64,000 nucleotides of DNA from an uncultured Brachyspira sp. (GTDB lineage: Bacteria; Spirochaetota; Brachyspiria; Brachyspirales; Brachyspiraceae), in the NCBI RefSeq assembly GCF_944393015.1, contig NZ_CALXYQ010000001.1, positions 1 through 64,000 on the forward strand, read 5' to 3'. Under the pieces are notes generated by a model. It made no database searches. It was given only the letters and a program-made list of their open reading frames with translations, and was not told the DNA's origin. The position numbers and the translations under genes are program-made. This document shows positions 730-8,322 of this stretch, piece by piece; positions within the stretch are counted from its first letter, which is position 1, and each line of letters begins with the position of its first letter.

Positions 730-2628
730 ATGGCTTTAAGTAAACCTAATGAATATAATGAAGTACCAGCTCAGCAAGGAGAAGCAACTGTATATGCCGA
801 AGATATTAATCAAATAATATCAAATATAGAAAAATTAAAAGGCGGTCAGGCTAATGAAGCTCCTATTTCTAATATTAAAGAATTAAAAGAGCATTTGGAT
901 AATTTAGAACAAGGAGCAGGAAGCGGAGGAAATATAGATAATATTCCGGCTGATAAAGTATCTTTTAATAATGATAATGCTAATTTAGATTTTTCTTCAA
1001 AGTATGATTTTCCTAAATTTAAAAATGAACTTAAAGAAATATATGAAATAAAATTAATAACTGATTATTCAATAAATAATGTTTCTCATATAGATGAAGT
1101 GCAGGATGTTTATACTCTTATATTAGAAAAGAATACTGATAAATATATATTAAAAGGAAACTTGAATTATAATAATACAAGCCAGTATACTAGTTCACTT
1201 AATTTTTATATAATATCGATAGATGGTAATAATGATTTCGGACATATAATAAGTGAAATGTTTCAATTTATAAATAGTGAGAGTAATGCAAAAGAAAATG
1301 AAATACTAATAGAAGGACTTAATAATTTTAAATATGCTTTTGGCTTTTACTATGCTATTCCTATTTTTCAAATAAAAAAGCAGGATAATTCTAACTTTGA
1401 AGAAAAAGAATATACGATTAATATAGAAATACAATTAAATAATATTAAAAATAATCAAGAGTTTATTCCTATAGCTTGCGGTACGTCAGAACTTTCATTT
1501 TTGAAATTAAAAAATATTAATGGGAAAGCAGCTATAATTGGAGAAACAATACAAACATCTGCTGATAGTAGTTTTATATTATTTTCTCATTTTGCTTTAG
1601 AAAATTATTTTGATATAAAAACTGATCAAAATGACAGCTATTATATAGAAGCTAATAATAATATAACTTCTAATAAAAATAAATCTTTGAAATATTATAT
1701 AAGAAAAGAAATAACTGATGGTTCAGAATTATCTCCTATATATGCCAATATACCTATAACTTTTTATTACTTAGAAATAAAACATTCTGATGATACTGAT
1801 ATAGAATATAAAGAAAGACTTACATTTAATTTAACAGCTCCAAAAAATGCCGATGTTCCCAAAATAGAGAAAGAGGCGAATATTCAAAATGCTATAGAAA
1901 TATTAAGCAGTCAGATAAAATATTTAATGCTTAATTTAGGAATAGGAAGCTCAAAAACTTATTTTGAAAAAACAGAAATTGATATAGAGGCAGGAGGAGA
2001 AGTACAGCATATAACTGCAGAAGCCTTAGAAGATGTTTCAGGACTTTATTTAGAAAAAAAATATGATGGTTCTTATTATATAAAAGGAAGCTTGAAAATC
2101 AGTACATCTGCATTAGAGCAAGCTATATTTGCTGTAAGAGTGAAAGCCGAGAGTTTAGAAAAATCAAAACTTAGAACTATGATTAATGATCATTTAAATG
2201 GAATTATTGTATATATTATCTATAAGGATAATTATATATACTGCGTATTTGCTCTTCAGCAAATAAGTGAAGATAGATATCAAAAAATAAATGAATATAA
2301 AATATATGATCAAAATATATTATCTCCTTTTGATAACGATATTATTACTGCTTCAGGAGTTATAATAGAAGAGCCTTTCGGAATATATTTGGTAAATGGA
2401 AAATATAAATTGAAAGGAAAAATCAGTATGGAAAGTCCTCTAGCATATTTTCAAACTATGGCTAATGAAGATATAAAACTATTTTTTGATAATGAATATA
2501 ACAATGGAGATTTTATGCTGCAATTAGGAGAAACTCAAATCGGCAATACAATGATAACTTGCGGATTTATTAGTGAAGGCAGTAATCGTATTTGCGATAT
2601 AGAGTGTCCTAAGCAGCCCAGTTTATAA
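730..2628 (+). CDS. Phage tail-fibre / structural-like protein
   Basis: A 632-residue soluble protein. The N terminus (MALSKPNEYNEVP, then YAEDINQIISNIEKL) resembles the start of many phage tail-fibre or baseplate proteins, followed by a Gly-rich hinge near residue 65. The rest is Ile/Asn-rich beta sequence. A loose repeated module can be seen: a Tyr/Leu-containing strand, Lys/Asp residues, then YYIKGSL, YKLKGKI or YILKGNL, at about residues 130, 450 and 555. There is no signal peptide or membrane segment. Its place after the spanin pair supports a phage origin. I do not recognise a specific family; a receptor-binding role is inference. Confidence 0.5.
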   Translation: MALSKPNEYNEVPAQQGEATVYAEDINQIISNIEKLKGGQANEAPISNIKELKEHLDNLEQGAGSGGNIDNIPADKVSFNNDNANLDFSSKYDFPKFKNELKEIYEIKLITDYSINNVSHIDEVQDVYTLILEKNTDKYILKGNLNYNNTSQYTSSLNFYIISIDGNNDFGHIISEMFQFINSESNAKENEILIEGLNNFKYAFGFYYAIPIFQIKKQDNSNFEEKEYTINIEIQLNNIKNNQEFIPIACGTSELSFLKLKNINGKAAIIGETIQTSADSSFILFSHFALENYFDIKTDQNDSYYIEANNNITSNKNKSLKYYIRKEITDGSELSPIYANIPITFYYLEIKHSDDTDIEYKERLTFNLTAPKNADVPKIEKEANIQNAIEILSSQIKYLMLNLGIGSSKTYFEKTEIDIEAGGEVQHITAEALEDVSGLYLEKKYDGSYYIKGSLKISTSALEQAIFAVRVKAESLEKSKLRTMINDHLNGIIVYIIYKDNYIYCVFALQQISEDRYQKINEYKIYDQNILSPFDNDIITASGVIIEEPFGIYLVNGKYKLKGKISMESPLAYFQTMANEDIKLFFDNEYNNGDFMLQLGETQIGNTMITCGFISEGSNRICDIECPKQPSL

Positions 2629-2656
2629 TAAATATAGTAAGGAGTGATATAAAAAT

Positions 2657-2866
2657 ATGTTTAAATTAATATTAATTTTTTTAATAGGTGTTATGGTACT
2701 TTTTACTTTCATTGGAATAGTAAAATACTATAACAAGTTTATGAATGAGAGCGAAGGAACTTTTACTGAGAGGTTAAAAGCTCTCATAAAAAACAAAACG
2801 TCAATATATTATTTTATTAAATTAACTTACGGATGTGTGATGTTTTTTATAGCTGTAATTTGTTAG
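2657..2866 (+). CDS. Small two-helix membrane protein, phage region
   Basis: 69 residues with one membrane segment at about 3-24 and a second at about 52-69, joined by a charged loop (NESEGTFTERLKALIKNK). The SD AAGGAGTG lies 11 bases before the ATG. Size, topology and position in the lysis region fit a holin or holin-associated protein, but no family motif is recognised. It is followed by a strong hairpin at 2911-2969. Confidence 0.5.
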   Translation: MFKLILIFLIGVMVLFTFIGIVKYYNKFMNESEGTFTERLKALIKNKTSIYYFIKLTYGCVMFFIAVIC

Positions 2867-2910
2867 GACGCATTATGAACGTATTAAAAGATTTACTTTT
2901 TATTATATAT

Positions 2911-2969
2911 AAAAAAATTGTCCGCTTTAAGTATCTGCTTGATAAATCAAGCAGATGCTCCCAATTTTT
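2911..2969 (+). terminator. Nested hairpin terminator
   Basis: The inner stem ATCTGCTTG/CAAGCAGAT (2933-2956) sits inside a second stem AAAAAATTG/CAATTTTTT, and a T-rich tract follows. It separates the 69-residue membrane protein from the holin-like gene at 3015. A 68-codon ORF running through it is treated as a shadow. Confidence 0.55.
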
Positions 2970-3014
2970 TATTTTTAATTTTTTTATATTAAAAAATTAT
3001 TACAGAGGTTATTT

Positions 3015-3239
3015 ATGTTCAATAGCTTTAAAGATTTAATTTCATGCTCAAAGACTGGGCATTTATCATCTATGCGTTTAATAAGTTTATTAGGTTCAGC
3101 GGTTATGCTTGTTTGTATAGCTTTCTTAGTTTTTTCTAAAGATGTTAGGCTTGGTGAAGCTCTTCCATTTTTGATGGGAGGTTTGCTTGGACTTGCTGGA
3201 TTTAAAAGTTATCAGTCAAAGTTTGAAGGCGATAAATAA
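3015..3239 (+). CDS. Holin-like small membrane protein
   Basis: 74 residues: a polar N terminus (about 1-20), two hydrophobic segments (about 23-40 and 47-62) joined by a short loop, and a charged C terminus SKFEGDK. SD AGAGG lies 7 bases before the ATG. Two helices with a charged tail is class II holin topology, and it lies downstream of spanins. No endolysin is visible in the window. It could instead be a superinfection or packaging accessory protein. It ends at a terminator (3290-3314). Confidence 0.5.
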   Translation: MFNSFKDLISCSKTGHLSSMRLISLLGSAVMLVCIAFLVFSKDVRLGEALPFLMGGLLGLAGFKSYQSKFEGDK

Positions 3240-3289
3240 TATTAACAAATCATTTACCATTTTTTTCTCCTAACAATAAAATGTTTTAA

Positions 3290-3314
3290 GGGCGGAGCTT
3301 AAAAAGTTCCGCCC
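3290..3314. terminator. Bidirectional hairpin terminator
   Basis: GGGCGGAGCTT and AAGTTCCGCCC form an 11 bp stem (one G-T pair) with an AAA loop. A T-rich tract follows on the plus strand, closing the phage operon. On the minus strand the same hairpin starts 10 bases after the stop of the 61-residue ORF, so it belongs to both units. Confidence 0.7.
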
Positions 3315-3324
3315 TGTTTTTTAT

Positions 3325-3510
3325 TTATTTTTTATTAAAAAATATTTCATAATAAAATATTGGTTTATTTTTAATATTTAATCTCATTTCAATATTGCTG
3401 TTATTAATAACTATTAAAAATATTATTATGCTTGCTATAAAAAATATTAATGATATAATAATATTGTTTACTATTTTTAAAAACAGCATTATACTATTTT
3501 TATTGATCAT
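3325..3510 (-). CDS. Small hydrophobic membrane peptide, left copy
   Basis: 61 residues starting MINKNSIMLFLKIVNN, with one long hydrophobic helix (about 7-36) and a basic C terminus ending FFNKK. It is a near-identical paralogue of the 60-residue ORF at 6801-6983 in the opposite orientation; even the upstream bases (CATAACACAAAGGACAAGCAT) are shared almost exactly. It lies between hairpins 3539-3567 and 3290-3314. Size and topology resemble type I toxins or small phage membrane peptides. Duplication of the coding frame argues that it is translated; function unknown. Confidence 0.55.
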   Translation of the reverse strand: MINKNSIMLFLKIVNNIIISLIFFIASIIIFLIVINNSNIEMRLNIKNKPIFYYEIFFNKK

Positions 3511-3538
3511 AATGCTTGTCCTTTGTGTTATGGTTTTT

Positions 3539-3567
3539 GAGGGTAAAGTTTTGGGGACTTTACCCTC
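3539..3567 (-). promoter_or_regulatory. Intergenic hairpin of the small-peptide array, left copy
   Basis: GAGGGTAAAGT and ACTTTACCCTC form a perfect 11 bp stem with a 7-base loop. It is the counterpart of the hairpin at 6746-6772. The stems differ at several positions but both remain fully paired, which supports conservation as RNA structure. On the minus strand it lies between the RHH remnant and the 61-residue ORF. Confidence 0.6.
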
Positions 3568-3585
3568 TTTTTTGATTTAGGCTTA

Positions 3586-3810
3586 TTATTTTTTGTATAT
3601 TTCATTCATATACATTTTATGCAGTTCTACTAAATACTCGCTTACTCTCATATTCAAACTGTCAGCCTCTATATATTCACCTAAAGACATATTGTACTTT
3701 CTTGCATAGTCTTTCATTTCATTAATACACTCTTCTGAAGCTGTAAAAGCCCAGTGTAATTTTTTTTGGTGCTTTTTTTAACTCTTCTTTTTTTCTAATT
3801 CATTAGTCAT
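3586..3810 (-). pseudogene. Ribbon-helix-helix protein remnant
   Basis: Reading leftward, an SD-preceded ATG at 3810 (AAGGAGTTGTAT) begins MTNELEKKKS and hits a stop at codon 11. Two compensating one-base shifts would restore a protein running through KKITLGFTASEECIN and EMKDYARKYNMSLGEYIE into SLNMRVSEYLVELHKMY. The last part is almost identical to the C terminus of the intact RHH protein at 6552-6725. This is a decayed copy inside an inverted duplication. A programmed frameshift at the long A-run is possible but less likely. Sequencing error in the homopolymers cannot be excluded. Confidence 0.6.
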
Positions 3811-3855
3811 ATACAACTCCTTGATATTATTTATTTTAATATTATAATTTTTAGT

Positions 3856-3884
3856 ATCAGGCATACTTGCAGTGTATGCCTGAT
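3856..3884 (-). promoter_or_regulatory. Intergenic hairpin with ACTGCAA loop
   Basis: ATCAGGCATAC and GTATGCCTGAT form a perfect 11 bp stem. Read on the minus strand the loop is ACTGCAA, resembling the CTGCCA loops at 6992-7017 and 7118-7145. It lies between a 28-residue ORF and the RHH remnant. Confidence 0.6.
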
Positions 3885-3906
3885 AGAGAACAAAGTTTTA
3901 TATTGT

Positions 3907-3993
3907 TCATTCTTTAAATATGTCTATTAGAGCAATTACGGTATTGGCTATAACAAATATTGCTCTAATAGCTTTTTCTAAATTAAAAGTCAT
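3907..3993 (-). CDS. 28-residue hydrophobic peptide
   Basis: ATG at 3993 preceded by a strong SD (GGAGG, 7 bases away). The peptide is MTFNLEKAIRA, then IFVIANTVIALID, then IFKE: a short amphipathic start, one hydrophobic helix and a charged end. Hairpins lie upstream (4042-4068) and downstream (3856-3884), as for the other small ORFs here. Translation is supported only by the SD and context. A small membrane peptide, possibly toxin-like. Confidence 0.45.
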   Translation of the reverse strand: MTFNLEKAIRAIFVIANTVIALIDIFKE

Positions 3994-4041
3994 AATTTAC
4001 CTCCTTTTTTATATGGAGGGATAAAATGAAATATAAAAAAT

Positions 4042-4068
4042 AAGGGCGGAGCTTAAACTCCTGCCCTT
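4042..4068 (-). promoter_or_regulatory. Intergenic hairpin at the head of the minus-strand small-peptide array
   Basis: AAGGGCGGAG pairs with CTCCTGCCCTT (one bulged T) around CTTAAA. Its left arm shares GGGCGGAGCTTAAA with the hairpin at 3290-3314. Read leftward it precedes the 28-residue ORF by about 50 bases. Confidence 0.5.
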
Positions 4069-4177
4069 GAAAAATTGAAATATAATTTATGAGTTTTTAG
4101 AAATTAATATAAATGAATTTTAAACTTTTTCATAAAAATAAGCAATCAATATGAATAGCAAAAGAATTACTCACATA

Positions 4178-4489
4178 CTATTTTTTATTTTTTGACGGGT
4201 ATATCATAACAATTCCATTCTTTTTATCTTCTATTATCATAGCTGCTATTTTTTTTATTTTATTATTATCATCAACTTTTACTGCAAGTGTCATAAATAA
4301 ACCATGACTGTATCCTCCGTTAGATTTTATCATATAAACTTTATGTTTATCATTGTAATATATCTCTTCGCTTCTTTGAAGTCTCCAGCATAAACCCTTA
4401 AAAATATCTGACAAAACAGGATATATTTTTTTCTTTTCATTTAAAAAGTCTATAACATTAGTTATATCTATTTCCCATATTATTGACAT
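4178..4489 (-). CDS. Candidate toxin partner of the Panacea antitoxin
   Basis: 103 residues, mixed alpha/beta, no signal peptide or membrane segment (MSIIWEIDITNVIDFLNEKK at the start, PSKNKK at the end). Its start overlaps the stop of the Panacea-domain gene by 10 bases with no SD of its own, implying translational coupling. Order (antitoxin first), size and overlap are those of a type II toxin-antitoxin pair, where the partner of a Panacea protein is very variable. I do not recognise the toxin fold; the role comes from context. Confidence 0.5.
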   Translation of the reverse strand: MSIIWEIDITNVIDFLNEKKKIYPVLSDIFKGLCWRLQRSEEIYYNDKHKVYMIKSNGGYSHGLFMTLAVKVDDNNKIKKIAAMIIEDKKNGIVMIYPSKNKK

Positions 4490-5007
4490 TCTGATAAAGC
4501 CTCTTCTATGTTTTTTATATCATTCTCATCTATTTCACCAAGCTTGTCAGCATGAACTGTATATAATGGAATTACTTCTCCTATATCAGCCATTTCCCAT
4601 ATTTCATTATGTGTAGTTTCGCTGATTTCTTTAGCAGTATAATCATTACATATATGATAATTATTATAGCTAATAGCATCAACATCCTGAGCGGTTAATT
4701 TAGTTAAATCAGGATCATTTAAACTTACAAAAATAGTTTGTTCATAATGCCCATGACGAACTTTATGAATTGCTATTTTCTTTTCATCTTCCAGCTCTTT
4801 TAATATTTCAAGTATATTTTTAGGTACTGGTCCGAATTGCCTTTTTATATATTCATCATTTGTTATTGATTTACCTGTATTAAAAAACATATCTGAATCT
4901 GAATAGAATAATATCTTATTTAATTTTATAGAACCTAATTTTATAGGATCATCGCAGCTTGCTATTATATAATGAACTGCAGCTTTATATTTTTCACTAT
5001 CAAGCAT
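4480..5007 (-). CDS. Panacea-domain (DUF4065, SocA/GepA-like) antitoxin
   Basis: 175 residues. The Panacea signature is visible: KLNKILFYSDSDMFFNTGKS (about 29-48), then RQFGPVPKNI (about 56-65), and near the C terminus a THNEIWEMAD motif. Panacea proteins are promiscuous antitoxins and proteolytic adaptors found next to diverse toxins, often on prophages. SD GAGGAGGT is very strong, giving high antitoxin translation, and the downstream 103-residue gene overlaps its end. Position beside an integrase suggests element maintenance or phage defence. The family call is good; actual neutralisation is inferred. Confidence 0.75.
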   Translation of the reverse strand: MLDSEKYKAAVHYIIASCDDPIKLGSIKLNKILFYSDSDMFFNTGKSITNDEYIKRQFGPVPKNILEILKELEDEKKIAIHKVRHGHYEQTIFVSLNDPDLTKLTAQDVDAISYNNYHICNDYTAKEISETTHNEIWEMADIGEVIPLYTVHADKLGEIDENDIKNIEEALSECQ

Positions 5008-5145
5008 TTTATTACCTCCTCAGAATAATCGGCAAATATAGTCTAATATATTTATATCTTATTTTCAATATATAAAAAATATTTTTTTCTTATATAAAAA
5101 TATTTAATAAAAAAATTATTTAAGACGATAATAATTATATCTAAG

Positions 5146-5209
5146 AAAACAACTCTATTCTTTTTCAAAAGTCAAGCAAATTTTTTAGAATAAAAAATGG
5201 AGTTGTTTT
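5146..5209 (+). promoter_or_regulatory. Terminator-like hairpin covering the integrase ribosome-binding site
   Basis: AAAACAACTCT (5146-5156) pairs with GGAGTTGTTTT (5199-5209), extended inside by ATTCT/AGAAT. The right arm contains the SD GGAG and runs straight into a T-tract just before the ATG at 5213. The structure could end transcription or hide the SD, so recombinase production probably needs readthrough or unfolding. Confidence 0.6.
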
Positions 5210-5212
5210 TTT

Positions 5213-6361
5213 ATGCTTAATGCTGAAAAATATAATCTTTATGATTATTCCAAAGATGTCAATTTTATTCTTCAATTTGCTGATTATCTTTCTATAGATA
5301 AAAGCCCATCAACTGTAAAAACATATAAAAATAATATTATATATTTTTTCAAGTTTATAATTAAACAAGATAATGATTATTCTATTTTTTCTGAAAAAGA
5401 TTATCTCTATATTTGCAGTACTGAAGTTTTATACCAAAATATAAATAAAGAATTATTAGAAAAATATATATCATATCAAACAGAAATTAAATTATCATCT
5501 GACATTATCAACTGCAGAATAAATGTTGTTAAAAGTTATTTAAAGTTTTTGCATAAGAAAAAAATAATAGAAGCTAAAATATTGATAGATACTTTTGATG
5601 ATATAAAAAGACCTAAACCAATAATAAAAGAACAGCTAGTAGTAAAAGCAAATCAAACTTTAGATATTATAAAAAAAATAGAAAGAACTTCAAAAGACAG
5701 TTTTACAAATCAAAGAAATATTTTAATGATGCTTTTAATGTCAAACACAGGCATTCGCAGAAAAGAAACTGCAGGCATAGATATTAGAAATATTAATCTT
5801 GAAAACAAAACTATAACTATTTATAAAACCAAAGGAAGCAAGCCCCGCATAGTTGTTTTTTCTGATATGATTAAAGATATATTAATTGATTATATATCAG
5901 AGCGTGATGAGATATTAAGAAAAAATAAAATAAAAGAACAGAATAATCTTTTTATTAAAAACAATGGACATGATTTAGCAATAGAAACTATGACTATGAT
6001 TATGAGAATAATATCAAAAAGAAATAAAGTAAAAATAACTTGCCATTCTTTTAGGCGAGGGTTTGCAACTGATATGGCAGAGAGCGGAACAGAAACTTAT
6101 TTAATAAGCAAGATGATGGGACATTCAAACATTAATACAACAACAAGCAGATATATTTATGTGCTTATGAATATGATAAAAAATGCAATGAGTAATCACC
6201 CATTCAATAAAGCAAATACAGAAAAAATAAATAGAGATAATGAAATCAAAAATATAAAAAATGATTTTCAGGAAAATATAACAAATACGCTTAATACAAT
6301 AGTGATAAAAATGAATGAGCTTAATAATAGGATTGATAAACTGAGTACAAAAAATGTATAG
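5213..6361 (+). CDS. Tyrosine recombinase / phage-type integrase
   Basis: 382 residues. N-terminal SAM-like core-binding domain (about 20-125, SPSTVKTYKNNI), then the catalytic domain with the full active-site set: Arg in TGIRRKE, Lys in the KGSKPR turn, HSFRR (HxxR), GHSNINTTTSRY giving the second His and nucleophile Tyr. A 60-residue helical C-terminal tail may mediate oligomerisation. It should cut and rejoin DNA for integration, excision or inversion. It lies between inverted copies of a small cassette and 205 bases from a divergent toxin-antitoxin pair. XerC/D housekeeping proteins are about 300 residues, so a phage or element integrase is more likely. Confidence 0.88.
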   Translation: MLNAEKYNLYDYSKDVNFILQFADYLSIDKSPSTVKTYKNNIIYFFKFIIKQDNDYSIFSEKDYLYICSTEVLYQNINKELLEKYISYQTEIKLSSDIINCRINVVKSYLKFLHKKKIIEAKILIDTFDDIKRPKPIIKEQLVVKANQTLDIIKKIERTSKDSFTNQRNILMMLLMSNTGIRRKETAGIDIRNINLENKTITIYKTKGSKPRIVVFSDMIKDILIDYISERDEILRKNKIKEQNNLFIKNNGHDLAIETMTMIMRIISKRNKVKITCHSFRRGFATDMAESGTETYLISKMMGHSNINTTTSRYIYVLMNMIKNAMSNHPFNKANTEKINRDNEIKNIKNDFQENITNTLNTIVIKMNELNNRIDKLSTKNV

Positions 6362-6551
6362 CTAAACTATGTATTTATACTATACCGTGATACTGTATAA
6401 TAAAATATAAACAAATTTATATTTGCAGACGCTTTTTTAAAAAAAATGATGTCAGTATGAATTTTTTTAAAAAATAAATAAAGAGCGGCTTATATTTCCT
6501 TATATTTTTTTACTAAGAGTATATAAAAAATAAATTTATAAGGAGTGCGGA

Positions 6552-6725
6552 ATGCAAAAATTAAAACCTGTTATCAAAGAAGAAAAAAATATAGGAATAA
6601 CTTTGAGAGTTACAAAGACAGCATTTCAAGAAATGAAGAAAGAGGCTGGCAGTTTGAATATGAGAGTAAGCGAGTATTTATTAGAACTGCATAAAATGTA
6701 TATCAATGAAGTAAATAAAAAGTAA
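6552..6725 (+). CDS. Ribbon-helix-helix DNA-binding protein
   Basis: 57 residues with SD AAGGAG. A beta strand (GITLRVT, about 15-21) is followed by two helices (KTAFQEMKKEAG and RVSEYLLELHKMY), the Arc/CopG fold in which strands from two subunits enter the DNA major groove. Probably an element-encoded repressor or antitoxin-type autoregulator. A decayed inverted copy lies at 3586-3810. The next genes on this strand are three hydrophobic peptides separated by hairpins, which it may control. Confidence 0.6.
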   Translation: MQKLKPVIKEEKNIGITLRVTKTAFQEMKKEAGSLNMRVSEYLLELHKMYINEVNKK

Positions 6726-6745
6726 TCAGCCTAAATAAAAAAAGA

Positions 6746-6772
6746 GGGTAAGGTTTTAGCAGAACCTTACCC
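6746..6772 (+). promoter_or_regulatory. Intergenic hairpin of the small-peptide array
   Basis: GGGTAAGGTT and AACCTTACCC, perfect 10 bp stem, loop TTAGCAG. It lies 20 bases after the RHH stop and 28 bases before the next ATG. Counterpart of the hairpin at 3539-3567, with different but still paired stem bases. Confidence 0.6.
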
Positions 6773-6800
6773 TAAAATCATAACACAAAGGACAAGCATT

Positions 6801-6983
6801 ATGATTAATAAAAATACTATAATACTGTTTTTAAAAATAGTAAACAGTATTATTATATCATTAATATGTTTAATAGCAAGTATAATAATCTTTTTAATAG
6901 TTATTAATAACTGCAGTATTGAAATGAAATTAAATATTAAAAACAAACCAATATTTTATGAAATATTTTTTTATAAAAAATAA
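6801..6983 (+). CDS. Small hydrophobic membrane peptide, right copy
   Basis: 60 residues beginning MINKNTIILFLKIVNS, one long membrane helix (about 7-36), then a basic tail ending FFYKK. SD AAAGGA. Paralogue of the minus-strand ORF at 3325-3510, differing at a handful of residues and one length change, so the reading frame is conserved in both copies. Flanked by hairpins on each side. It resembles small type I toxin or phage membrane peptides in size and topology; function unknown. Confidence 0.55.
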   Translation: MINKNTIILFLKIVNSIIISLICLIASIIIFLIVINNCSIEMKLNIKNKPIFYEIFFYKK

Positions 6984-6991
6984 ATAATAAA

Positions 6992-7017
6992 GGCTGGAAC
7001 TCTGCCAAGTTTCAGCC
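6992..7017 (+). promoter_or_regulatory. Intergenic hairpin with CTGCCA loop
   Basis: GGCTGGAACT and AGTTTCAGCC form a 10 bp stem (one G-T pair) closing a CTGCCA loop. It begins 8 bases after the 60-residue ORF. The loop is identical to that of the hairpin at 7118-7145 although the stems differ in sequence. Confidence 0.62.
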
Positions 7018-7045
7018 CTGAATCCAACATATTAGGAGGTCTAAT

Positions 7046-7108
7046 ATGCAAGACACTATATTGTTTTTAGTTTTATTAATCTTGCTTATACAAGAAATAA
7101 AAAAATAA
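7046..7108 (+). CDS. 20-residue hydrophobic peptide
   Basis: ATG preceded by a very strong SD (AGGAGG, 6 bases). The peptide MQDTILFLVLLILLIQEIKK is almost entirely one membrane helix with a Lys tail, like the short type I toxins (Ibs, TisB class). Hairpins flank it on both sides. The SD and position in a row of similar ORFs support translation; there is no homology evidence. Confidence 0.45.
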   Translation: MQDTILFLVLLILLIQEIKK

Positions 7109-7117
7109 GCAATATAC

Positions 7118-7145
7118 AGTGTAAGGTTCTGCCAAACCTTACACT
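7118..7145 (+). promoter_or_regulatory. Intergenic hairpin with CTGCCA loop
   Basis: AGTGTAAGGTT and AACCTTACACT form a perfect 11 bp stem around CTGCCA. The bases after it, GAAAACATC, also follow the hairpin at 666-700. No strong T-run, so processing or translational control is as likely as termination. Confidence 0.62.
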
Positions 7146-7177
7146 TGAAAACATCATTTTAAAATGGAGTTAAAACA

Positions 7178-7270
7178 ATGTTCAATATTGATATCAAAAT
7201 TATATTACTATTTTTAAAAATAGTAAAGTACATTTTAACTTTTTTCATCAAAATAATCAAGTCTGATTAA
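7178..7270 (+). CDS. 30-residue hydrophobic peptide
   Basis: ATG preceded by TGGAG (9 bases). The peptide MFNIDIKIILLFLKIVKYIL then TFFIKIIKSD is amphipathic and Lys-spaced, unlike the uniform helix of its neighbour. It contains LLFLKIVK, recalling the LFLKIVN of the 60-residue ORF, so it may be a shortened relative. Last of the plus-strand array; AT-rich non-coding DNA follows. Confidence 0.4.
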   Translation: MFNIDIKIILLFLKIVKYILTFFIKIIKSD

Positions 7271-7382
7271 AAAATCAAAATATATATCAATATCAAAAAT
7301 CATTAGAGAATATAAGCTCATTAAAAATTAAATCAAAACTTTTTGATTTAACTTTTTATAATTGATTTCTTGATTTTGTATA

Positions 7383-7481
7383 AGATTAGCATTTTGTCAG
7401 ACTAACATTTTAGCAGGCTCATTAAAAAAATTGTATGAGATTAGCATTTTGTTAGACTAACATTTTAGCAGGCTCATTAAA
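7383..7481 (+). repeat. Two 44-bp direct repeats
   Basis: AGATTAGCATTTTGTCAGAC... at 7383-7426 recurs at 7438-7481 with one substitution (C to T), 55 bases apart. Both end GCAGGCTCATTAAA. No gene overlaps them. Possible binding sites or an element end; function unknown. Confidence 0.6.
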
Positions 7482-7668
7482 TATTTTGATGTTAGTTGTT
7501 TCTATAAAAAGGCGTTTTGTAATGCTGATTTATGCTGTTGCGATAACATCATCAAAAATTGAGTTTTGATTTTTGATTTGAAGGGCTTTATTTGAAGCGT
7601 AGAGGCTTGTTTTCGGGGCTTTTTTAGGTTTAATATAGATTTATTTGTATGCCTGATTAAAAAACTTC

Positions 7669-7721
7669 AAAAACTAGGCTTTTTTTATAAATACTAGATA
7701 ACTATGTTTTCTAGTTTTTTT
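7669..7721 (+). terminator. Possible terminator hairpin
   Basis: AAAAACTAG (7669-7677) can pair with CTAGTTTTT (7711-7719), followed by a T-tract. A competing inner hairpin ACTAG/CTAGT (7693-7715) uses the same right arm. There is no obvious gene immediately upstream. Confidence 0.3.
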
Positions 7722-7754
7722 ATTTTTAAAACCTTTAAATCAAAAAGAAAGTTT

Positions 7755-7834
7755 AAAAGTAGGTAGTAGTAGTAGTTAACTACTACTGCAAGAAACGTGC
7801 CAATTAATTTGACTACTACCACTACTACTTTTTT
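7755..7834. repeat. AGT/ACT triplet palindromes
   Basis: AAAAGTAGGTAGTAGTAGTA leads into a perfect 20 bp palindrome centred at 7777/7778 (AGTAGTAGTT/AACTACTACT). A second ACT-rich arm at 7811-7830 ends in a T-run. The left arm can pair with either the middle or the right arm. It lies in the gene-free stretch 7271-8322, and could be an attachment, replication or RNA-switch site. Confidence 0.5.
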
Positions 7835-7883
7835 ACTAAAATTTATTTTATTAAAAATTAATTTAAAAAATTTTTGTATTTTG

Positions 7884-7911
7884 TTGACTTTAAAATTATT
7901 TTGTGTATATT
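7884..7911 (+). promoter_or_regulatory. Candidate sigma-70 promoter
   Basis: TTGACT, 16 bases, TATATT. Transcription would start near 7918, at the left arm of the inverted repeat 7916-8153. No convincing protein gene lies downstream, so it may drive a non-coding RNA. Confidence 0.45.
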
Positions 7912-7915
7912 AGTA

Positions 7916-8153
7916 ATTGACAAGCAAAATTATAAAATGCTATCAAAACAAAAGCCTGAGAAACTTTTGCAGCATTGTAAGGAAAGAAAATATGAAAGCG
8001 GATAGAGGTATAATACTATCTTTTAAGGAGCTGTATGCTCAGAAGAAAAATAATAGTAATTGTTCTTTAATTTTAATAAGCTCGAAATGCGGTACAAGTG
8101 TGAAAAACTATCTCTCAAATAGTTTCTTTCCTGCTTGTATTTTGCTTGTCAAT
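7916..8153 (+). other. 238-bp segment bounded by a 15-bp perfect inverted repeat
   Basis: ATTGACAAGCAAAAT at 7916-7930 is exactly inverted at 8139-8153. Inside and overlapping are AAACTAT/ATAGTTT (about 8105-8125) and GCGGTACAAG/CTTGTACCGC (8091-8100 and about 8165-8174). A 106-codon frame with a TTG start spans it, and an inner ATG at about 7992 has a weak SD, but the frame does not look like a real protein. A structured RNA or a mini-element is more likely. Nothing else is seen in 8240-8322. Confidence 0.35.
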
Positions 8154-8322
8154 AAAAATAAAGCCTTGTACCGCTTTCTTATAGATTTTAAAAAATTCGT
8201 TAAACTTTTAACTTTATCAATTTTAAATAAGCATTAGTATTCAATCATACTAAAATTATATTACAGTAAATTTAAACTAACAAATTGTTACAGTTTTAAT
8301 ATCAAATTATTTTTTCTTTTAC

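Follow-up and report, generated by a model that had tools for sequence, protein, structure and literature searches.

The window, that is, the whole 64,000-nt stretch of DNA analysed here (positions 1 to 64,000 of contig NZ_CALXYQ010000001.1, uncultured Brachyspira sp.), opens with the right end of a Brachyspira prophage, in which a tail-fibre-like gene extending to position 2628 is followed by holin-like genes. A minus-strand array of small genes (5007-3216), a tyrosine integrase gene (5213-6361) and a plus-strand array (6552-7270) come next along the window (Table 1), and 3' of the latter lie a prophage-specific repeat region and then host-like genes (a CAP-domain gene and a pyrK-like gene). 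In the minus-strand array, which is related to the plus-strand one, the 60-aa ORF has a paralogue and the 57-aa ribbon-helix-helix (RHH) gene a decayed counterpart; a 28-aa hydrophobic ORF and further hairpins are also present there.

A preliminary description of the plus-strand array had reported three consecutive hydrophobic ORFs of 60, 20 and 30 residues with good SDs, alternating with three hairpins. All of these elements are present, each ORF with a good SD, and the best 19-residue hydropathy windows of the three peptides reached 3.48, 1.64 and 2.16, respectively. The 57-aa RHH protein matched a NikA-like Pfam family below the cut-off (E = 0.0012). Its structural model (pLDDT 82) had its best PDB fold matches among RHH proteins (e.g. 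MazE6, AtaR, Arc, CopG and NikA), none of them at E < 0.001, and a sequence search of solved structures with RHH proteins gave no convincing match, the likeness being one of fold only.

Table 1. Coordinates of genes, hairpins and predicted antisense elements in and around the two arrays
Feature	Position	Strand	Remarks
Holin-like gene	3015-3239		just before the D-type hairpin
14-aa ORF, possibly no gene	3260-3216	-	second array
D-type hairpin	3289-3315	+	putative antisense terminator upstream of 14-aa ORF; could equally end the phage late operon
61-aa paralogue of 60-aa ORF	3325-3510	-	second array; 85% identical
Antisense promoter-like TTTACT-N17-TATACT	3467-3495	+	for 61-aa paralogue
Predicted 75-nt antisense RNA of 61-aa paralogue	3502-3576	+	terminator hairpin at 3539-3567, followed by TTTTTTGAT
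Decayed RHH gene	about 3811-3586	-	second array
Hairpin, loop ACTGCAA	3855-3885	-	between F3 and decayed RHH gene
28-aa hydrophobic peptide ORF, family F3	3907-3993	-	
Tyrosine integrase, XerC/D-like	5213-6361	+	between the two arrays; not integron type
57-aa RHH gene (Arc/NikA-like)	6552-6725	+	first gene of downstream array
Predicted 74-nt antisense RNA over SD and start of 60-aa ORF	6736-6809	-	SL1 (anti-SD TCCT in loop), SL2 6773-6745, CTTTTTTTA tail
Hairpin 1, 11 bp, plus-strand loop TTAGCAG	6745-6773	-	predicted terminator stem-loop of 60-aa ORF antisense RNA
60-aa hydrophobic peptide ORF, family F1a	6801-6983	+	
Antisense promoter-like TTTACT-N17-TATAGT	6816-6844	-	position shared by 12 F1 genes
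Second antisense site TTGCTA-N16-TATAAT with TG	6879-6852	-	p_syn 0.02
Hairpin 2, plus-strand loop CTGCCA	about 6990-7019	-	terminator-like, weak U-tract TTTATTATTTATTTTTTA
Antisense SL1 of 20-aa ORF, GCATATTAGACCTCCTAATATGT	7020-7054	-	stem contains anti-start; most of anti-SD in loop
20-aa hydrophobic peptide ORF, family F2	7046-7108	+	
Predicted 84-nt antisense RNA of 30-aa ORF	7109-7192	-	two stem-loops
Hairpin 3, plus-strand loop CTGCCA	7118-7145	-	
30-aa hydrophobic peptide ORF, family F1b	7178-7270	+	shorter than 59-aa copy in L023
Antisense promoter-like TTTACT-N17-TATAAT	7199-7227	-	

Distinct hairpin-plus-ORF units were collected into a cassette set of 37 rows (5-6 of which are not array cassettes) with 24 distinct hairpins. 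The encoded products comprise F1 (30-75 aa, with an N-terminal IILFLKIV in common), F2 (20-22 aa), F3 (26-28 aa), RHH regulators (56-67 aa) and a doubtful F4 (14-15 aa). Pooled pN/pS was 0.59 for F1, 0.64 for F2, 0.39 for F3, 0.15-0.50 for RHH and above 1 for F4, many of these values being only moderately below 1; a comparison of two F3 types gave a pS of about 0.7 versus a pN of about 0.27. Judged by their SDs and these ratios, the F1, F2 and F3 peptides look translated; F4, with its pN/pS above 1, is not supported as a gene. The peptides had no relevant match in Pfam, NCBIfam or PHROGs and showed no homology to a described toxin family, which membership in the type I toxin-antitoxin class does not require, and Rfam 15 gave no match above the gathering score in the window. 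Being 14-75 aa long and without a family match in the libraries searched, such peptides could easily be missed by sequence-based annotation.

Relatives of the integrase (E of 1e-20 or better) occur in 16 of 29 genomes of the family, many with adjoining arrays, and relatives of the arrays recur next to the integrase in many Brachyspira prophages. In a profile search of GTDB contigs F1 was confined to Brachyspira, the named records being an uncultured Brachyspira MAG and B. innocens ATCC 29796. The F1 profile had no match in IMG/VR, where the RHH profile matched one prophage contig, and array DNA matched nothing among phage and plasmid records. At about 5000-7500 of locus L022 (G015:C106), a stretch of about 2.5 kb contains four RHH genes that have diverged and a near-identical pair of F1 copies, one of which has stops; this array appears to be partly duplicated and decaying.

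Orientation and variability of the hairpins

The hairpins stand 27-46 nt 5' of a start codon, most of them directly 3' of an A-run (6.52 A per 10 nt just 5' of the hairpins versus 4.13 in the 30 nt after the stops of 44 larger ORFs). RNA fold z values of hairpins 1, 2 and 3 were −6.9, −2.2 and −4.0, respectively, and eight terminator-like hairpins were found in 2600-8300 compared with 1.2 ± 1.4 in shuffled sequences; pairing statistics are circular when taken alone, because the hairpin set was found by pairing. The preliminary description would have been refuted by a lack of further such hairpins next to small ORFs, and 24 distinct ones were found to precede small ORFs in the window and sister prophages. 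Their tails contain 6.25 T per 10 nt on the antisense strand versus 2.33 on the sense strand, and 13 G-U pairs fall on the antisense RNA versus 5 on the sense RNA (one-sided p = 0.048), counts that are not independent, as cassette copies share ancestry and recombine. Since U-runs and G-U pairs favour the opposite strand, the hairpins look like one-way intrinsic terminators directed against the genes, and they are most likely Rho-independent terminators of opposite-strand RNAs and not elements of the ORFs' own mRNA. A proximal U-run is lacking from hairpin 3 (in front of the 30-aa ORF) and from those that precede RHH genes; the terminator of the antisense RNA of the 30-aa ORF would be weak because its U-run begins about 11 nt past the stem.

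As had been noted earlier, hairpins 2 and 3 share the loop CTGCCA and a similar loop occurs in the other array (ACTGCAA, read from 3885 to 3855); the plus-strand loop of hairpin 1 is TTAGCAG, the reverse complement of CTGCTAA. The accompanying statements that the stems differ completely and the loop stays constant went too far. Hairpins 1 and 3 have GTAAGGTT/AACCTTAC in common, most stems of the family look related, and the loops of sister cassettes read CTAGGAA, CTGCGAA, TTCCTAG, TTCGCGG, CCCCAAA or TTT. Compensatory stem change does occur: 9 of 11 stem pairs have changes on both sides, a figure that is partly circular because the hairpins were chosen by pairing, and clearer evidence comes from orthologous sites of hairpin 3 (AGTGTAAGGTT/AACCTTACACT in the window, AGGGTAAGGTT/AACCTTACCCT in L023, one unpaired site in L020). 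By itself it is no proof of selection on the loop, because template switching yields compensatory stems with a kept loop and loop inversions besides. Such an inversion is seen at one locus, with CTAGGAA in L024 and L059 versus TTCCTAG in L020. Homogenised arms together with inverted loops are the signature described for template switching (PMC8794818, PMC8604942), and the loop therefore need not be a binding site.

The CTGCCA loop as a protein or kissing-loop site was rejected as the main idea, given that it varies and inverts. CTGCNA-like loops on different stems, which a terminator role does not explain, are most simply read as the result of common descent while the stems drifted. The coexistence of compensatory stems and loop inversions bears on hairpin evolution by template switching, and cautions that covariation alone does not prove selection on one strand. 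Stem lengths are variable and MAFFT placed the hairpin arms out of register; a DNA pattern for stem A gave 69 scattered matches in IMG/VR that were treated as uninformative. In L066 and L072, a long perfect hairpin (ACTGCATTTTGCAG / CTGCAAAATGCAGT) directly follows the integrase, and its 9-nt loop is cleanly inverted between the two loci (ggtagcata versus tatgctacc).

Antisense promoter-like sites and predicted antisense RNAs

All 12 distinct F1 copies carry an antisense TTTACT-N17-TA(T/G)NNT at one fixed place, the spacer being exactly 17 bp and the −10 reading TATAAT, TATAGT, TATACT, TATTAT, TATATT or TAGAAT. The mean score of this site was 7.88 (z = 5.0 over 140 positions; lowest copy 6.36) compared with a mean of 1.82 for the best sense site, scores that are limited by an E. 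coli-like matrix, Brachyspira promoters being little known; among the positions scored in F1 no strong sense promoter was found at a fixed place, the promoter-like site there being antisense. T, A and the final T are retained in the antisense −10, and the overlying codons vary (I, T, S or N; I or L). In 14 F1 copies the FLKIV codons, which overlie the −35 and spacer, are free of synonymous change, pS elsewhere being mostly 0.3-0.8; gene conversion could account for this as an alternative to promoter constraint. F1a genes carry the second antisense site as well (p_syn 0.01-0.02), and scoring of F2, F4 and RHH genes revealed no convincing antisense promoter. A near-palindromic core (CTATTTTTAAAAATAG or CTGTTTTTAAAAATAG) with the invariant FLKIV codons is present in all F1 genes; besides acting as spacer of the antisense promoter-like site, this core might have some additional role.

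With a start 7 nt after the −10, the predicted F1 antisense RNA is 74-86 nt long; it spans the leader together with SD and start codon and terminates at the hairpin. Its 5' part is predicted to form a second stem-loop (SL1) with the anti-start CAU paired and the anti-SD mostly in the loop. Antisense leader folds had a mean z of −3.96 for F1 (n = 13), −3.36 for F2 (n = 4), −1.3 for RHH and −0.7 for F4, compared with −0.02 for the leaders of 32 larger genes of the window used as controls, and sense-strand folds of the same leaders gave −1.2 (F1) and −1.4 (F2); for SL1 of the 20-aa ORF, z was −4.8 antisense versus −2.4 sense. When the anti-start was required to be fully paired and the anti-SD mostly unpaired, this geometry was seen in 11/13 F1, 2/4 F2, 1/2 F4 and 0/4 RHH leaders and in 0/32 controls, so that the SL1 feature goes with F1 and partly F2 and is absent from RHH regulators. 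Sense-leader MFE was uninformative as a test of SD sequestration (SD bracketed in 14 of 23 leaders versus 20 of 32 controls); folding of the antisense strand does tell the two apart. The hairpin of the preliminary description is likely SL2, the terminator of the antisense RNA, with SL1 in the leader as the recognition element, and the predicted RNA would have the anatomy of the RBS-blocking type, as in type I toxin-antitoxin (TA) systems or FinP/RepX.

In the upstream arrays of L024 and L059, F1 copies have a one-base frameshift inside the FLKIV core and retain the antisense terminator and the anti-SD stem-loop (z of −6.2 and −6.6), as expected if the peptide is lost before the antidote.

Cassette exchange and explanations of the arrays

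Because homology between prophages breaks at the hairpins, these also serve as cassette boundaries. In 27 cassette pairs one 25-nt flank is retained and the other swapped at the hairpin (left retained in 17, right in 10); for instance, the left flank ...aaaaagtaatcagcctaaataaaaaaag is common to the window, L020, L023, L024, L059 and L103, with differing right flanks and F1 genes. Exchange has taken place inside F1 genes too (L059, L024). By virtue of the 27 flank replacements the hairpins resemble T4-type PeSLs (promoter early stem-loops), in that a stem-loop composite marks shuffled modules. The promoter and terminator of a PeSL serve the genes' own strand, whereas those predicted here face against the genes. 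The location of stem-loop and promoter composites at small-gene boundaries is a further likeness (refs 36 and 37 as cited in PMC4503421).

We consider it fairly probable that the row of ORFs is a tandem, modular, reshufflable array of type I toxin-antitoxin-like cassettes with cis-antisense RNAs. Every F1 ORF (and probably every F2 ORF) would have a dedicated antisense RNA of about 75-85 nt, encoded in cis, which, once made, would pair with the leader of the peptide mRNA via the anti-SD loop, blocking ribosome loading and promoting decay. On loss of the prophage or depletion of the RNA, the membrane peptide would be made and would harm the cell. The terminator would double as the edge of the exchange unit, and template switching would keep its stem perfect and flip its loop. 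A resemblance to an array of type I toxin-like peptides had been pointed out before, and it is the anatomy that bears this out, namely small hydrophobic ORFs with a predicted cis-antisense RNA over each RBS. Small, hydrophobic, SD-bearing ORFs under coding constraint were found in F1, F2 and F3 and not in F4; an overlapping antisense gene with promoter and terminator is recognisable, by sequence only, for F1, and F2 has the terminator and SL1 with no clear antisense promoter. The peptides may be toxic and serve prophage maintenance or abortive defence, by analogy with the type I systems of C. difficile and Bacillus prophages (PMC7699646, PMC5848175).

The hairpins might instead be reverse-facing insulator terminators that only stop convergent transcription (entering the upstream array from the late operon and the downstream array from host genes), with no dedicated antisense RNAs and with the peptides being ordinary prophage morons, e.g. 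for superinfection exclusion. This would accommodate the T-runs on the antisense strand, the D-type hairpin right after the holin-like gene, where it could end the late operon, and the F4 and F2 cassettes with terminators and no clear antisense promoters. We regard it as unlikely, however, since the fixed antisense promoter of all F1 genes, the antisense anti-SD stem-loop and its absence from RHH genes, and the presence of one terminator per gene would all be left unexplained. Nor do we give much weight to the idea that the hairpins persist, in PeSL-like fashion, mainly as short homology or as a recombinase site for shuffling near the integrase: the stems measure just 10-13 bp and differ wholesale from one locus to the next, exchange extends into F1 genes, and strand-specific U-runs, G-U bias and an antisense promoter are not predicted by it, even though flanks are replaced at hairpins in the 27 pairs, stems A, B and E are almost confined to integrase-side arrays (zero matches for a control pattern) and the distance from array to integrase is at most about 3 kb. 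Such recombination is compatible with type I-like cassettes as a by-product.

That the inverted repeats are DNA operators at which array RHH proteins repress each module seems very improbable. RHH genes do belong to the arrays, and a protein that binds DNA as a dimer would fit the perfect symmetry and the inverting loops, but the sites lie between stop codon and SD and not at sense promoters, their arms are paired at nearly every base, and the U-runs and G-U bias are strand-specific. The preliminary description had suggested a selected RNA element, perhaps a processing or protein/antisense-binding site; intercistronic processing or stability hairpins on the coding strand would agree with the location between stop and SD and with stable coding-strand folds. 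However, it is on the opposite strand that mismatched positions more often form G-U pairs, that the U-run is found and that the leader fold is much stronger, which makes an antisense terminator more likely than a processing or loop-recognition site in the peptide mRNA and leaves the coding-strand role scarcely credible. Integron attC cassettes share with the arrays a tyrosine recombinase adjoining small promoterless ORFs, each with a palindrome. An IntI-type integrase was rejected (TIGR02249, 54 bits versus a cut-off of 265), as was an attC site (R''/R' cores, 57 nt or longer), the elements here being 25-32 nt with outer ends devoid, on inspection, of integron core motifs; because neither integrase type nor site anatomy fits, the attC reading was discarded. 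There is a slender chance that the arrays are integron-like phage cassettes, each made of a membrane peptide and an antisense antidote, with the terminator hairpin as the recombination site, possibly for the neighbouring tyrosine integrase; prophages would then trade toxin-antidote specificities as ready-made units.

Related systems and neighbouring features

If the reading as type I-like cassettes is right, membrane peptides under antisense control occur in Brachyspira prophages as tandem sets that reshuffle, a class of which we found no report for spirochaetes in the literature searched. Such arrays would offer a natural collection of many versions of a single RBS-blocking antisense design, with which the evolution of specificity between neighbouring toxin-antidote pairs could be studied. 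In SymE/SymR and Ibs/Sib, too, an antisense RNA spans the SD and start codon of a small ORF; Ibs peptides are hydrophobic as well, and Ibs/Sib is likewise multicopy (five copies in E. coli MG1655); blocking of ribosome entry by the antisense RNA has been described for Sib and proposed for SymR (PMC4147584). In contrast to these, the present arrays each hold two or three unrelated families of putatively toxic peptides together with regulator genes, and have neither a known-toxin match (Pfam, NCBIfam, PHROGs) nor an Rfam match in the window.

The yonT/SR6/yoyJ locus of Bacillus prophage SPbeta also pairs small toxin ORFs with an antisense RNA of about 100 nt; SR6 is situated between two toxin ORFs, overlaps one of them in its 5' region and extends to the other (PMC5848175). 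One RNA thus serves two toxins there and pairs mainly with the yonT 3' end, whereas here each F1 leader has its own predicted promoter-terminator unit. In C. difficile prophages, type I TA systems (CD0977.1/RCd11 etc.) similarly comprise small hydrophobic peptides and antisense RNAs and are widespread in the phages of one species (PMC7699646), but their peptides are unrelated, have a lysine-rich tail and are encoded in a convergent arrangement, and they are not described as hairpin-bounded cassettes. A two-stem-loop antisense RNA with a U tail at the target RBS is common to FinP/traJ and RepX/repA, where the FinP-traJ duplex blocks the traJ RBS and RepX (75 nt) is antisense to the RBS of repA-repC (PMC8136791); a regulator gene and a replication gene are targeted there instead of membrane peptides, and FinP/traJ depends on the FinO chaperone, with none known for the array. 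Inverted repeats upstream of many phage-gene start codons are likewise present as SAS/ESAS in cluster K mycobacteriophages. These differ in having a conserved 13-bp start sequence and 17-bp imperfect repeats, with no antisense terminator described in the sections of PMC3203893 dealing with them.

A Panacea/SocA-like antitoxin gene (E = 1e-13) occupies 4178-5007 on the minus strand and overlaps a 103-aa gene of no assigned family, the two forming a candidate Panacea toxin-antitoxin pair. The same slot is occupied by a DnaQ-type-exonuclease-like gene in L057 and L062, and the slot between integrase and array therefore seems to be a cargo site. Beyond the plus-strand array, a 55-bp direct repeat (1.9 copies) lies at 7376-7481, and sister prophages have unrelated repeat arrays in this position (about 46-bp gatgcacgaaatgaacatgcacgctttgtacactttactggtaa; about 44-bp gcaaactgtcattttgttaatttcaaagaatagcagtttacggt), as though prophages exchanged the repeat unit in one block. 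At about 7754-7832, facing blocks GTAGGTAGTAGTAG... and ...CTACTACCACTACTAC flank a conserved GCAAGAAA(T/C)GTGCCA; three alleles of the blocks (GTAGTAG, GTCAGTTAG and GTAGGTAGGTA types) occur among sister prophages, both blocks changing together, and the region is possibly an att site or a binding region for a recombinase or regulator.
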